A stretch of DNA of 40,178 nucleotides from Flavobacteriaceae bacterium (lineage in GTDB: Bacteria > Bacteroidota > Bacteroidia > Flavobacteriales > Flavobacteriaceae). Made by a program: the position numbers and the translations under genes. The notes under the pieces were generated by a model. The model was not told where the DNA came from, ran no database searches, and saw only the letters and a list, made by a program, of their open reading frames with translations. The DNA is taken from positions 1-40,178 of the forward strand of contig JANTGS010000019.1 of the NCBI GenBank assembly GCA_024762795.1. The letters run 5' to 3'. This document shows, piece by piece, positions 24,832 through 30,370 of the stretch. Numbering within the stretch: position 1 is the first letter of the stretch; every line of letters starts with the position of its first letter.

Positions 24832-25509
24832 ATGCTGATAAAAAATAATTTAGATAAAATCTTAGAAACTGTTCCCGGGGGTGTTACCCTGGTGGCAGTT
24901 TCTAAAACTAAGCCCATCTCCGATATTCAGGAAGTCTATGATGCCGGTCACAAGGTTTTTGGCGAAAACAAGGTACAGGAAATGGTTCAAAAATATGAAG
25001 CCCTGCCTAAAGATATCGAGTGGCACATGATTGGTCATTTACAACGCAACAAGGTAAAATATATGGCGCCTTTTGTAAGTCTGATCCATGGTGTTGACAG
25101 CTTTAAAACCCTAAAAGAAATCGATAAACAAGCCCAAAAGAACAACAGGATCATACCTTGTTTACTCGAAGCAAAGATCGCTCAGGAAGACTCTAAGTTC
25201 GGTTTATCCTTTGCTGAGATCGAAGAGATCCTTACTTCTGATGCCTTTAAAGAATTAAAGAACATACAGATCAGCGGATTGATGGGTATGGCGAGCTATA
25301 CGGATGACAAAGAACAGATCGCCAAAGAATTCCGTTCGTTAAAGAACTTTTTTGAAAAGCTTAAAAAAGAACTCCCCAAAGCAGAAAATATCAATTTAAC
25401 GACCCTTTCCATGGGAATGAGCGGCGATTATAAAATTGCCCTCGCCAATGGCAGTAACATGATCAGAGTGGGCAGCGCTATCTTTGGTGCAAGAAATTAT
25501 ATCGCCTGA
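24832..25509 (+). CDS. YggS/PLPBP-family PLP-binding protein
   Basis: A 225-aa member of the YggS (PLP homeostasis) family, folded as the N-terminal barrel of alanine racemase without its C-terminal domain. The PLP-binding lysine is Lys25 in LVAVSKTKP. Other marks: FGENKVQEMVQKYE, WHMIGHLQRNKVKY (the conserved HxIGxLQxNK), and near the end LSMGMSGDYKIALANGSNMIRVGSAIFG. It is not a racemase; family members buffer free PLP and affect amino-acid pools. The 4-base gap to DUF1015 puts it in the serC operon, which fits the need of SerC for PLP. Confidence 0.94.
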   Translation: MLIKNNLDKILETVPGGVTLVAVSKTKPISDIQEVYDAGHKVFGENKVQEMVQKYEALPKDIEWHMIGHLQRNKVKYMAPFVSLIHGVDSFKTLKEIDKQAQKNNRIIPCLLEAKIAQEDSKFGLSFAEIEEILTSDAFKELKNIQISGLMGMASYTDDKEQIAKEFRSLKNFFEKLKKELPKAENINLTTLSMGMSGDYKIALANGSNMIRVGSAIFGARNYIA

Positions 25510-25606: not shown

Positions 25607-26863
25607 ATGTATGCTCTTGTAGACTGTAATAATTTTTACGCTTCGTGTGAGCGGGTCTTCCGGCCCGACCTGCAAAATAAGCCTATTGCCATCCTGTCAA
25701 ATAATGACGGATGTGTGATCGCACGCAGTAATGAAGCCAAAAGATTTATTCCTATGGGAGCTCCGGCATTTAAATTTGAAAAGATCTTTAAAAAAGAACA
25801 TATTCATGTTTTTTCTTCCAATTATGCGCTCTATGGCGATATGAGTACACGGGTGATGAATATTCTTTCGGGGTTTACCCCTGAAATAGAAGTATACTCC
25901 ATAGATGAAGCCTTTATGGATTTTAGCGGATTTGAGAAATACAACTTTTCCGAATACGGGAAAAAGATCAGATATAAGGTTACTAAGAGTACCGGGATAC
26001 CCATAAGTATAGGCTTTGCTCCTACCAAAGCACTGACCAAAGTGGCAAACAGAATCGCCAAGAAATTTCCGGAGCAGACCAGGGGAGTATATCTTATAGA
26101 TTCGGAAGAAAAAAGGATCAAAGCCCTTAAATGGCTAAAAATAAGTGATGTATGGGGAATCGGCCGTAAGCATACAAAACGCTTAAAGGCAAAAAACATT
26201 CATACGGCTTACGATTTTACAAGGCTTCCGGATGCCTGGGTACAAAAAGAAATGAGTGTGGTTGGCCTGAGGCTGAAGCATGAGCTGGAAGGGAAACCGC
26301 GTCTTGGCCTTGACGAAATAAAGAATAAAAAAGTTATTGCTACTACACGTTCTTTTGAAAGAATGTACACGGATTATGAAAATCTGAAAGAGCGTATCAC
26401 CACTTTTACTGTCAGCTGTGCCGAAAAACTTCGCCGGCAGAGATCACACTGTAACCTGATAATGATCTTTTTGCATACCAACGGCCACAGGAAAGACCTG
26501 AAACAATACAGCCGGAATATCGTGGTCAAAACCGAATATCCCACAAATTCAAGTATCGATCTGGTTCGGTATGCCCTGCAAGGGCTCAAAGCTATCTATA
26601 AAAAGGGTTATGCCTATAAGAAAGCAGGAGTCATTGTAATGGAACTGACCCCGGAAAGCAATCCACAGATCGGGCTGTTTAAAAACGAAGATCCCAGACA
26701 TAAGGTTTTAATGCAACATATAGATCATCTCAATAAAAGTATCGGATATCAGAAGGTAAGATTTGCCGGACAGGATCTGCAGCGGATGTGGAAAATGAAT
26801 CAGAACAGCCTGTCGCCCAGATATACCACGCGTCTGGACGAAGTAATAGAACTAAAAGTATAA
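25607..26863 (+). CDS. Y-family DNA polymerase, UmuC-type
   Basis: A 418-aa translesion polymerase. Metal-binding residues are visible: Asp6 in MYALVDCNNFYASCERVFRP, and Asp100-Glu101 in YSIDEAFMDF. SNNDGCVIARSNEAK and GIPISIGFAPTKALTKVANR are typical of UmuC rather than DinB, and the C-terminal UmuC-specific domain ends near RYTTRLDEVIELKV. Length equals E. coli UmuC (422 aa). UmuC is usually preceded by a LexA-like UmuD; here the upstream gene is YggS and no umuD frame exists nearby. A weak TAACTTTA box precedes it, and no SOS operator was recognised. The next gene, a nuclease fusion, follows 24 bases later. Confidence 0.93.
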   Translation: MYALVDCNNFYASCERVFRPDLQNKPIAILSNNDGCVIARSNEAKRFIPMGAPAFKFEKIFKKEHIHVFSSNYALYGDMSTRVMNILSGFTPEIEVYSIDEAFMDFSGFEKYNFSEYGKKIRYKVTKSTGIPISIGFAPTKALTKVANRIAKKFPEQTRGVYLIDSEEKRIKALKWLKISDVWGIGRKHTKRLKAKNIHTAYDFTRLPDAWVQKEMSVVGLRLKHELEGKPRLGLDEIKNKKVIATTRSFERMYTDYENLKERITTFTVSCAEKLRRQRSHCNLIMIFLHTNGHRKDLKQYSRNIVVKTEYPTNSSIDLVRYALQGLKAIYKKGYAYKKAGVIVMELTPESNPQIGLFKNEDPRHKVLMQHIDHLNKSIGYQKVRFAGQDLQRMWKMNQNSLSPRYTTRLDEVIELKV

Positions 26864-26887: not shown

Positions 26888-27970
26888 ATGAATTATGCAA
26901 TTTTAGATATAGAGACAACCGGTGGAAAATACAATGAAGAATCCATCACCGAAATTGCTATTCATAAATTTGACGGACATAACGTAGTGGAATCACTGAT
27001 CAGCCTGATCAATCCTGAAAAGGAAATACAGCCTTTTGTTGTAAAACTTACCGGGATCAACAACAAAATGCTGAAAAATGCGCCTAAATTTTACGAAATA
27101 GCCAAAAGAATTATTGAGATCACCAATGATTGTGTACTCGTGGCTCACAATTCTAATTTTGATTATCGTATTCTGAAAACAGAATTCAGGCGACTGGGTT
27201 ATGATTTTGATATTCCAACACTTTGCACGGTTGAACTGAGCAAAAAACTAATTCCGGGACTGGAATCATACAGTTTGGGAAAACTTTGCCGGGCCATAGG
27301 AATACCGGTAAGCGACCGCCACCGTGCCAACGGAGATGCGCTGGCTACGGTAAAACTTTTTGAATTGCTCCTGCAAAAGGACATCCGTAAAGAGATCATA
27401 AAAAAATCGATAAAATCGGGAAACAAAAGAGATCTCCCTCAAAAATTACTAAGAATCCTCGATGAACTTCCCAGTAAAACAGGCGTTTTTTATATGCACA
27501 GATACAACGGGGAGATCATTTACATCGGCAAAGGCCGGGATATTAAAAAGAGTGTGAACAAGGTATTTTTAAGAAATTCAAAATACATGCGCCAGATGCT
27601 CAAGGAAATGGCCGATGTTACCTATGAAGAAACCGGAAGTACTTTGGTAAAAAGGATCAAATATCTGGAAGAGATCACACAACATAAACCGAAGTACAAC
27701 AAGAAGCTTAACCACAACGAGTTTAATTTTGGTTTTTCCAATCCCAATATGGTCATCATAGACAAAGGTAAAAATGTGATGGAAAAATCGGTACTCCTTA
27801 TAGAGAATAACCAGTTCAAAGGCTACGGATTTACCGATCTGAATCATCAGATCGACAATATTGAGATCCTGAGATCGTTAGTAACTCAAAATAACTATTC
27901 ATACAAATTTAACAATATCATTCATTCCTATCTGCAAAAAGAAAAAGTTGAAAAAATAATCCGATTTTAA
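26888..27970 (+). CDS. DnaQ-like exonuclease fused to a degenerate GIY-YIG (UvrC-N/Cho-like) domain
   Basis: A 360-aa two-domain protein. Residues 1-165 are a DEDDh 3'-5' exonuclease: Asp7/Glu9 (DIET), Asp92 (NFDYRIL), His145 and Asp150 (DRHRANGD), as in the DnaQ epsilon subunit. Residues about 195-275 have the UvrC-type GIY-YIG fold: GVFY (199-202), IYIGKG (211-216) and HKPKYNKKL. The catalytic Arg of that domain (KKR in UvrC) is Ser222 here, and the catalytic Glu (LLLE in UvrC) aligns with Tyr259 in RIKYLEEIT, so the nick-making site appears lost. The last ~85 residues form a domain I do not recognise. DnaQ-UvrC fusions exist elsewhere (for example mycobacteria). Pairing with UmuC suggests a DNA-damage role. 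Confidence 0.85.
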   Translation: MNYAILDIETTGGKYNEESITEIAIHKFDGHNVVESLISLINPEKEIQPFVVKLTGINNKMLKNAPKFYEIAKRIIEITNDCVLVAHNSNFDYRILKTEFRRLGYDFDIPTLCTVELSKKLIPGLESYSLGKLCRAIGIPVSDRHRANGDALATVKLFELLLQKDIRKEIIKKSIKSGNKRDLPQKLLRILDELPSKTGVFYMHRYNGEIIYIGKGRDIKKSVNKVFLRNSKYMRQMLKEMADVTYEETGSTLVKRIKYLEEITQHKPKYNKKLNHNEFNFGFSNPNMVIIDKGKNVMEKSVLLIENNQFKGYGFTDLNHQIDNIEILRSLVTQNNYSYKFNNIIHSYLQKEKVEKIIRF

Positions 27971-27974
27971 TTCT

Positions 27975-29540
27975 ATGAGAAAGAGCCTGATCCTCCTGAT
28001 TCTTCTTAGCTTCAGCATTGCTACTGCACAAAAAAAACAAAAAAACCATATACTTTCGGGAAGATCTCAGCAGCAGAACTTTCGATGAAAACCTATGAAA
28101 AAGATACCACAGCCAATGCTTTTGTCTTGGCCGAATTTGGAGATGTTTCCGTTAAAAATGAGAACAGCAGTATCTTTCTCAGATCCAACGTATATAAAAA
28201 GATCAAAATACTGAATAACGACGGGAAAGATCATGCTACAGTTCAAGTTTACCTGTATAATGGTAAACAAAGCAAAGAAAAAGTAAACCATCTAAAGGCT
28301 GTTACTCATAACTTAGGGGAACCTGATCAAAATCTGAATCCTAAAAGAGTTTATACCAAAACCATCAATGATCACTGGAGTGAGCTCACCTTTACTTTTC
28401 CAAATGTCAAGGCAGGAAGTGTACTGGAATATACTTATAATCTCGATTCAAAATTCTTCTTTACTTTTCAGGGATGGACTTTCCAGTCGGATATACCGAA
28501 GATCTACAGCGAGTTTCATGCTTCAATACCGGGCAACTGGAGATATAACAGGCATCTTGTTGGAAGTTTAAAACTTGACAATAATATTGCAGGAATCAAA
28601 AAAGATTGTTTCTCCATTGGCAGTGGTACAACAGCAAATTGCGAAGAACTTACCTATGCCATGAAAGATGTTCCGGCTTTTATTATTGAGGATGATTATA
28701 CCAATTCACCTAAAAATTACAGGTCGAGAATTAAATTTGATCTGGCAGAAATTTTCTATACCGATGGTAGTACTAAAAAATACACAAAAACCTGGAAGGA
28801 TACAGATAAACGCCTGAAATACAATAAGAATATAGAGAAAAGTGCCAATAATGATAAGTTCTTTTTAAAAAGTTCTACCTCCTGATCTTTTAAAAACCGA
28901 GAATGATCTGGAAAGAGCCAAAAAGATCTTTTATCATATCAGGGACCATTATGCATTTAATTCTGAGAAAGAAGGTATTTTCGATCAGATCGATGTAAAA
29001 AAAGCCCACAAGGAAAAATTGGGAAATTTATCTGAAATCAATCACGGACTCATCAATGCATTACAGGCGGGAGATATTGATGCAAAGATCTTCCTCTCCT
29101 CTACAAGGGAAAATGGTTTTCCTACCAAATTGCATCCGGTGATGACCGATTTCAATTACCTGATGGCTTTTGTAAATATTGATGGAAAAGAATATTTACT
29201 CGATGCATCAGAAAAAAATCTCCCTTTTAATATGGTTTCCTATGATGCTTTGAATAGTTTTTGGAAGAGTAATGGATTTTGATAAAGGCAGTTACTGGTA
29301 TGATTTTGTCCATAAAATATCTACGCTTGAAAAGATTAAAATCGTTTCAAGTCTGGATGATGGAGATTATTTATAGCAAATATTGTAAAACAAGATTATA
29401 AAATATTAATTTATACCAAGATCAGCCTGCTAAAGACCCTTTATGCCCCAAGTGATTATGAATATTTAAAAGGTTTATTCAGTGAAATTATTAAATTTCA
29501 GAATAGTTTTATAATTTTAGAAAAAAAAATATCTAATTGA
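27975..29540 (+). pseudogene. Decayed DUF3857/transglutaminase-like secreted protein
   Basis: The remains of a gene for an exported DUF3857 protein with a transglutaminase-like middle. The signal peptide (MRKSLILLILLSFSIATAQ) lies in one frame and the DUF3857 body (GKISAAELSMKTYEKD onward, from about 28050) in another. A third frame from about 28872 gives LPPDLLKTENDLERAKK and the transglutaminase region, which again shifts near 29262 to FGRVMDFDKGSYWYDF. Each shift sits in a homopolymer: A7 at 28039-28045, A5 at 28867-28871, T5 at 29258-29262; one base gained or lost repairs each. After a stop near 29370 only the C-terminal end survives (KTLYAPSDYEYLKGLFSEII). Intact relatives are about 640 aa by memory, so several hundred bases have also been deleted. 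It is not a working gene as read. Confidence 0.82.
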
Positions 29541-30370
29541 GTACACAGAACGAAAAGAAGAACTGGAAACAACATCTGTTTGAGATCATTTATGAAGCCG
29601 ATACCAAAGAAGGCAAATTATTTGATGTAGTACTGTTATGGGTAATTCTTTACAGCATTGTACTGGTTATGCTGGAAAGTGTTAGATCACTGGATGAAAA
29701 ATACCACAATTTTTTCTATATCTCTGAGTGGATCATTACCATACTTTTTACAATAGAATATATCATCAGGGTGATCAGTGTTAAGGATCCTAAAAAATAC
29801 ATTTTTAGTTTTTACGGAATTATCGATTTTCTTTCTACCATTCCTATGTATCTTTCATTTGTATTTGCCGGAGGCCATGCACTGATCGCATTACGTGCCT
29901 TGCGTTTATTGAGGGTCTTTAGAATCTTAAAACTGGTACGCTTTGTTGGAGAGGCCAATAAATTACGGGCAGCCCTAAAAGCAAGCCGGTTTAAAATACT
30001 GGTCTTCTTACTGGCCGTTGTGATCTTATGTGTTATTCTGGGCACGGTTATGTACCTGATAGAGGGAGACGATAGTGGTTTTACCAGTATCCCAAGAAGT
30101 GTTTACTGGGCGGTGGTTACTCTAACCACAGTGGGGTACGGAGATATTCACCCTACTTCTGCTTTAGGACAATTTATCGCAAGCCTTGTAATGATCCTCG
30201 GTTACGGTATCATTGCCATTCCAACAGGAATCGTTACCGCTGAATATTCTAAGCAGACCCCACACCATGAGGTTCATTTGAATACACAAACCTGTCCGAA
30301 TTGCTCAGCCGATAATCACAAGGATGGTGCTAAATATTGTTACAAATGTGGTGAAAGATTAAAAGATTAA
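29537..30370 (+). CDS. Voltage-gated-type potassium channel with C-terminal zinc ribbon
   Basis: A 277-aa ion channel subunit with six helices. S1 is at about 30-48 and S2 at 62-80. The S4 voltage sensor is ALIALRALRLLRVFRILKLV, with charges at 120, 123, 126, 129, 132 and 135. The pore helix and selectivity filter are TLTTVGYGD at 195-203, followed by an S6 around 211-235. The TVGYGD filter indicates K+ selectivity. Residues 253-271 carry CPNC...CYKC (Cys253/256/268/271), a zinc ribbon facing the cytoplasm. The start is TTG (29537), overlapping the TGA of the preceding pseudogene by three bases, a sign of former translational coupling. A 6-bp hairpin TGTTGT/ACAACA at 30373-30390 separates it from the convergent gene. 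Confidence 0.9.
   Translation: MSTQNEKKNWKQHLFEIIYEADTKEGKLFDVVLLWVILYSIVLVMLESVRSLDEKYHNFFYISEWIITILFTIEYIIRVISVKDPKKYIFSFYGIIDFLSTIPMYLSFVFAGGHALIALRALRLLRVFRILKLVRFVGEANKLRAALKASRFKILVFLLAVVILCVILGTVMYLIEGDDSGFTSIPRSVYWAVVTLTTVGYGDIHPTSALGQFIASLVMILGYGIIAIPTGIVTAEYSKQTPHHEVHLNTQTCPNCSADNHKDGAKYCYKCGERLKD

Follow-up and report, generated by a model that had tools for sequence, protein, structure and literature searches.

The gene at 26888..27970 on the forward strand of the window, that is, of the whole 40,178-nucleotide stretch of flavobacterial DNA that was analysed, encodes a protein of 360 residues in which a DEDDh exonuclease domain is followed by an apparently catalytically dead GIY-YIG domain and a C-terminal tail. 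With a probability of roughly 0.6, this protein is a 3'-5' exonuclease in which the one-time incision domain survives as a noncatalytic module that positions DNA. The comparisons establish the homology, the orthology by synteny, the residue losses and the missing segment; beyond these, confidence in the parts of this reading decreases from a working exonuclease, through a GIY-YIG domain that does not nick, to the positioning of DNA by that domain. Annotation by fold alone would count the protein as a nuclease twice over.

An intact exonuclease joined to a GIY-YIG fold with a replaced active site

The exonuclease domain comprises residues 1-165 (26888..27382, forward strand), with the Pfam RNase_T family covering residues 5-158 at an E value of 1.5e-33, and its signature residues D7, E9, D92, H145 and D150 are all intact, in agreement with the preliminary description of this DNA. 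The same five residues are intact in 124 of the 125 proteins extracted for comparison, the exception being L111, whose first position was left unread, probably as an effect of start choice. A fold search with the window protein returned DinG, PolC and epsilon exonucleases at VIA Z scores of 22-25; its match lists were filled by exonucleases, so that the absence of UvrC from them carries no weight for the GIY-YIG part. A 3'-5' exonuclease activity is predicted. The score against TIGR01406, the DnaQ equivalog for the DNA polymerase III epsilon subunit, is 77.9 bits and lies below the membership cut-off of 222.7.

The GIY-YIG fold spans residues 193-275 (27464..27712, forward strand). In a full-length phmmer search, residues 186-275 matched the UvrC GIY-YIG structure 1yd6 with an E value of 3.9e-8, and the GIY-YIG fragment alone matched it at 1.5e-8 in an alignment over 84 residues whose single one-residue gap lies away from the catalytic stretches. 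The Pfam family PF01541 gave no match at E <= 1 in the window protein and none in two further members of its clade; a long-form relative, L249, matches it at 2.3e-10. Within the GIY part, strands and helices follow one another in the same order in the AlphaFold2 models of a long form (pLDDT 84.2, pTM 0.82) and of the window protein (pLDDT 89.7; its pTM of 0.53 leaves the domain arrangement unsure), and pLDDT is about 90 across most of the domain. Downstream, the tail formed by residues 284-360 (27737..27967, forward strand) aligns with the last ~77 residues of the long form; we considered that it might conceivably be a remnant of the RNase H half of UvrC. No Pfam match at E <= 1 was obtained in the window protein for the UvrB-binding, RNase H and HhH parts of UvrC.

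Although the fold is held in common with the N-terminal domain of UvrC (1yd6, 1ycz), four catalytic positions are replaced in the window protein, as indicated by both the 1yd6 alignment and that of the relatives. The preliminary description had placed Ser222 (27551..27553) at the catalytic Arg and Tyr259 (27662..27664) at the catalytic, metal-binding Glu, and both assignments are borne out; the loss is nonetheless of four positions rather than two, since Phe201 (27488..27490) replaces the GIY tyrosine and Val226 (27563..27565) the catalytic His/Tyr, all on the forward strand. This last position, four residues after the Arg, is occupied by Tyr in UvrC, and 49 of the 50 active relatives have His there. 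Of the motifs earlier described as remaining, the YIG mark stands, with Tyr212 present together with Lys215 and Asn271, but GVFY is itself a departure from the GVYY of active relatives on account of Phe201. In the tentative UvrC mechanism outlined in parts of PMC2630997, the Glu binds metal, the Arg contacts the phosphate and the Tyr acts as the base. The GIY-YIG domain of the window protein would no longer nick DNA.

Substituted active-site residues are also known from the R.Hpy188I family, as described in passages of PMC2630997, but R.Hpy188I is an active enzyme, whereas the window protein lacks the metal Glu itself. It is very improbable that the domain remains active with relocated residues, Arg229 (27572..27574, forward strand) standing in for the Arg and Glu261 or Glu262 for the Glu, even though, in some R.Hpy188I homologues, a relocated Arg has been suggested (PMC2630997, in part) and position 229 is newly conserved as a basic residue, being Lys or Arg in 26 of the 28 proteins of the window's clade and mostly Gly, Asn or Ser in active forms. 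The metal Glu, the GIY Tyr and the His/Tyr are all missing at once; Glu261, which the preliminary description had named as the residue that might take over the role of the Glu, varies within the inactive clade, and Glu262, found in 20 of its 28 members, is already present in 46 of 50 active forms, where Glu261 and Glu262 accompany Glu259.

Relation to Cho+Exo fusions and to a longer orthologue

An N-terminal DnaQ-type exonuclease followed by a UvrC/Cho-type GIY-YIG domain is the architecture that sections of Dunin-Horkawicz et al. 2006 (PMC1564403) assign to the Cho+Exo and Cho-like+Exo subfamilies. The window protein shares with Cho+Exo and PRK07883-type proteins the intact N-terminal DEDDh exonuclease and the downstream GIY-YIG fold; on the contrary, it has neither the four-Cys region nor the catalytic GIY tyrosine, Arg, His/Tyr and Glu, and its curated score falls short. 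Its best NCBIfam match, an NF005906-type "DEDD exonuclease domain-containing protein", extends over residues 2-275 and scores 217.9 bits against a cut-off of 495, below which the long form L249 also lies (269.2). The window protein varies an architecture already known, that of Cho+Exo. The text of PMC1564403 contains none of the terms Bacteroidetes, Flavobacter and Cytophaga, and no description of a dead GIY-YIG domain in DnaQ fusions was found in the literature searched, a scope outside which most subscription papers lie.

Homologues were detected at E <= 1e-25 in 288 of 299 sampled genomes of Flavobacteriaceae. The 125 proteins extracted comprise 115 of family 1, to which the window protein belongs, and 10 of a paralogous family 2; two of the family 1 proteins, those of genomes G001 and G003, came from a genus-level search. 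Frames under about 400 residues were all fetched and long frames only in part, so the family counts are not prevalences. Family 1 divides into 7 exonuclease-only proteins, 2 cut by contig ends and 106 complete ones. With the presence of the four Cys scored by alignment columns, 52 complete proteins have them (Arg and Glu both kept in 50, one changed in 2), 11 have a degenerate Cys region (both kept in 6, one or both changed in 5) and 43, among them the window protein, lack the region after the GIY-YIG domain (both kept in 4, one or both changed in 39). The paralogues of family 2 (L167-L176), at about 39-49% identity, retain both Arg and Glu in all 10 proteins.

The neighbourhood yggS - gene - Kch, often with a DUF1015 gene before it and a DUF3857 gene after it, is common to short and long forms, and on this basis the short form is the orthologue of a long form of ~455 residues. 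In the window, yggS lies at 24832..25509 and the downstream potassium-channel-like gene, here labelled Kch, at 29537..30370, both on the forward strand. The ~455-residue orthologues (L221-L227, L229-L254 and L256, from Flavobacterium, Aquimarina, Kordia and others) have the same neighbours in the sampled genomes, the same exonuclease and C-terminal tail, and about 60-65% identity to the window protein over residues 3-283. Unlike it, they possess an intact YYKRHEN-type catalytic set, with Arg and Glu in 33 of 34, and the four-Cys region. The segment missing from the short form amounts to about 100 residues of the long form (~276-375), the four Cys among them, and the alignments and models place the corresponding junction at 27713..27736 on the forward strand. 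A match to the excinuclease Cho covers residues 184-375 of L249, a long form, with an E value of 2e-28. As told in part of PMC9426483, UvrC carries a [4Fe4S] cluster in a loop downstream of its GIY-YIG domain, and this loop supports complexes with DNA.

It has been proposed, according to portions of PMC1564403 that cite earlier work, that the Cho+Exo fusion nicks beside a lesion and then digests through it. A clade that has the exonuclease and lacks both the nicking site and the four Cys offers a natural test of this nick-then-digest model: either the exonuclease serves an independent function, for which the GIY-YIG fold suffices as a means of placement, or the nick comes from another enzyme, for example UvrC. 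The window's genome contains a UvrC-sized frame with a GIY-YIG match, and 3' incision may, judging from that frame, be available elsewhere. The same genome also holds a stand-alone GIY-YIG frame, L005 (G000:C32:22381-22599), with a TAG within the match.

A clade without the active site and the fate of its inactive domain

Twenty-eight short proteins, including that of the window, form one clade with SH-aLRT support of 96 by a quick method, and all of them lack both Arg and Glu, which extends to flavobacterial homologues the two replacements first noticed in the window. This tree was built on all shared columns minus the catalytic ones and holds 110 of the 125 rows, the 7 exonuclease-only, 2 truncated and 6 long-branch proteins (L107, L176, L100, L101, L175 and L106) being left out; a tree of the exonuclease part only was poorly resolved, and the 28 were not recovered as one clade in it. 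Of 80 relatives with named records, 37 carry both residues, among them those of Flavobacterium, Aquimarina, Kordia and Eudoraea. Both are missing in 38, which include proteins of Lutibacter, Polaribacter, Tenacibaculum, Flavicella and Wenyingzhuangia; a single one is kept in 4, and the remaining protein is truncated. The absence from all 28 clade members and from 38 of the 80 named-record relatives shows that the loss is no matter of chance or sequencing error. Over the whole tree, the starred branches imply at least 7 changes of Arg/Glu state. In raw counts, proteins that have lost the four Cys show a strong tendency to have lost Arg/Glu as well; once the tree was taken into account, a sign test gave no significance (median p of 0.25 and 0.125, with 5 and 6 independent pairs, respectively). 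In Polaribacter and Tenacibaculum, many copies (L192, L193, L196, L197, L202, L204 and others) carry Glu at the lost Arg site, a reversal of charge.

In the wider class, homologues were detected at E <= 1e-40 in 167 of 295 genomes. Seven unusual frames taken from there comprise 3 that are exonuclease-only, 2 that have lost Arg and Glu (taxonomic family f2), 1 with Gln for Arg and the Glu kept (f21) and 1 of the window type. Exonuclease-only relatives (L109-L115 and L291-L293, of 167-184 residues) occur both among flavobacteria with small genomes and in a further taxonomic family (f34).

All 28 clade members keep the whole GIY-YIG domain, at total lengths of 358-365 residues. Of the two closest pairs, one gives a dN/dS of 0.010 for this domain and the other 0.042-0.049, with the exonuclease at 0.05-0.06; in a third close pair (L020/L021) the domain stands at 0.126 and the exonuclease at 0.042. 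At longer range such ratios are rough, since synonymous sites are near saturation. Particular residues recur at the lost sites, namely Phe201 in 24 of 28, Leu226 in 20 of 28 and Tyr or Phe at 259 in 20 of 28. The basic residue 229, seven after 222, would share one helix face with it if the helix continues. The mean net charge of the GIY domain is +8.7 in the 28 clade proteins, compared with +6.8 in 50 active long forms. These low ratios, the charge and the recurrent residues are consistent with the earlier suggestion that the fold was retained without activity as a recognition module.

The opposite possibility, that only the exonuclease matters and that the GIY-YIG half is a decaying relic slowly disappearing, would account for the graded series running from long intact forms through degenerate Cys regions and short forms with Arg/Glu to short forms without them and, finally, to the exonuclease alone. 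The domain is gone entirely in 7 of the 115 family 1 proteins and can therefore be dispensable. Once inactive it also diverges faster: at an exonuclease identity of 0.75-0.80, GIY identity is 0.42 in the inactive forms and 0.57 in the active ones (21 proteins of the inactive clade compared with 50 active long forms). Such decay is nonetheless rather unlikely in view of dN/dS values within 0.01-0.05 in the two closest pairs and of a domain kept whole throughout the clade with its recurrent residues and its charge.

It is likewise unlikely that the GIY-YIG domain and tail serve as a protein-protein docking module instead of contacting DNA. Retention of the fold without catalysis would fit such a role, and a new FL[KR]x[ST] stretch together with the aromatic-filled active site could form a protein surface; however, a domain so strongly positive is more fitting for a nucleic-acid surface, and no partner has been identified. 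A module that positions DNA for the exonuclease is the reading preferred here.

The proposed course of events would begin with an ancestor of Cho+Exo architecture, combining the exonuclease, a GIY-YIG 3'-incision nuclease and the four-Cys region. The four-Cys segment would have been deleted, and the GIY-YIG active site lost, in the ancestor of a group to which Lutibacter, Polaribacter, Tenacibaculum, Flavicella and Wenyingzhuangia belong, with the fold being kept in a noncatalytic, positively charged state; its most probable task would be to hold or position DNA for the exonuclease. A more specific version is tentative, at somewhat less than even odds: a single conversion of the Cho-type incision domain, in the ancestor of this large marine flavobacterial group, into a nuclease-dead reader of DNA structure or 3' ends that loads the 3'-5' exonuclease and bears a motif of its own, Phe201, Leu226, an aromatic at 259 and Lys/Arg229. 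If true, nature would here have produced a separation-of-function form of the exonuclease-incision fusion.

The UmuC gene and other neighbours

A umuC gene (IMS, IMS_C and DUF4113 domains; 25607..26863, forward strand) ends 24 nt upstream of the exonuclease gene, and the preliminary description had linked the exonuclease to this translesion polymerase. A functional pair acting at translesion sites is highly unlikely, despite the shared strand and the same adjacency in genome G001. Only in the window and in the near relative G001, whose UmuC is 97% identical, does umuC separate yggS from the exonuclease gene, and none of 40 context loci from homologues, a set without G001 and the window, has umuC near the gene. 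UmuC matches at E <= 1e-60 were obtained in 11 of 21 genomes carrying window-type genes, the window's own included, and in the other 10 of the 21 there was none at that threshold; in the congeners G002 and G003, UmuC is encoded on contigs other than that of the exonuclease gene. With umuC rarely adjacent and often absent or elsewhere, the adjacency is local and probably recent, and a UmuC partnership as a general feature was rejected, there being neither conserved linkage nor co-occurrence. In the window's genome, the gene for a UmuD-like protein (L295) lies on contig C100, away from umuC; umuD adjoins umuC in the relatives L088, L089, L091 and L093-L096.

Neither of the two window upstream regions, those of umuC and of the exonuclease gene, contains a Bacteroidetes SOS box (CTAA-N5-TTAG or GGA-N5-TCC/TTC), an absence that also speaks against the UmuC pairing; SOS control of the window genes by these two published motifs was rejected. 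A Bacteroidetes GIY-YIG exonuclease of COG0847 is predicted, in parts of PMC8565304, to be under SOS control under both motifs. When one mismatch to CTAA-N5-TTAG was allowed, family 1 genes with Arg/Glu gave 5 of 61 (shuffle mean 6.0) and those without 6 of 47 (shuffle mean 4.7), which is no excess; the small sets of family 2 and of exonuclease-only family 1 genes gave 5 of 10 (shuffle mean 1.2) and 6 of 7 (shuffle mean 0.9), respectively, a possible enrichment. Family 2 may be what the published prediction refers to, but with so few genes this is a guess.

In two congeners, Kch follows the exonuclease gene almost directly. In the window, the DUF3857 gene downstream (28085-29282) is broken into a 266-residue piece with its continuation in another frame; several long-form relatives have a DUF3857 gene at the corresponding place.
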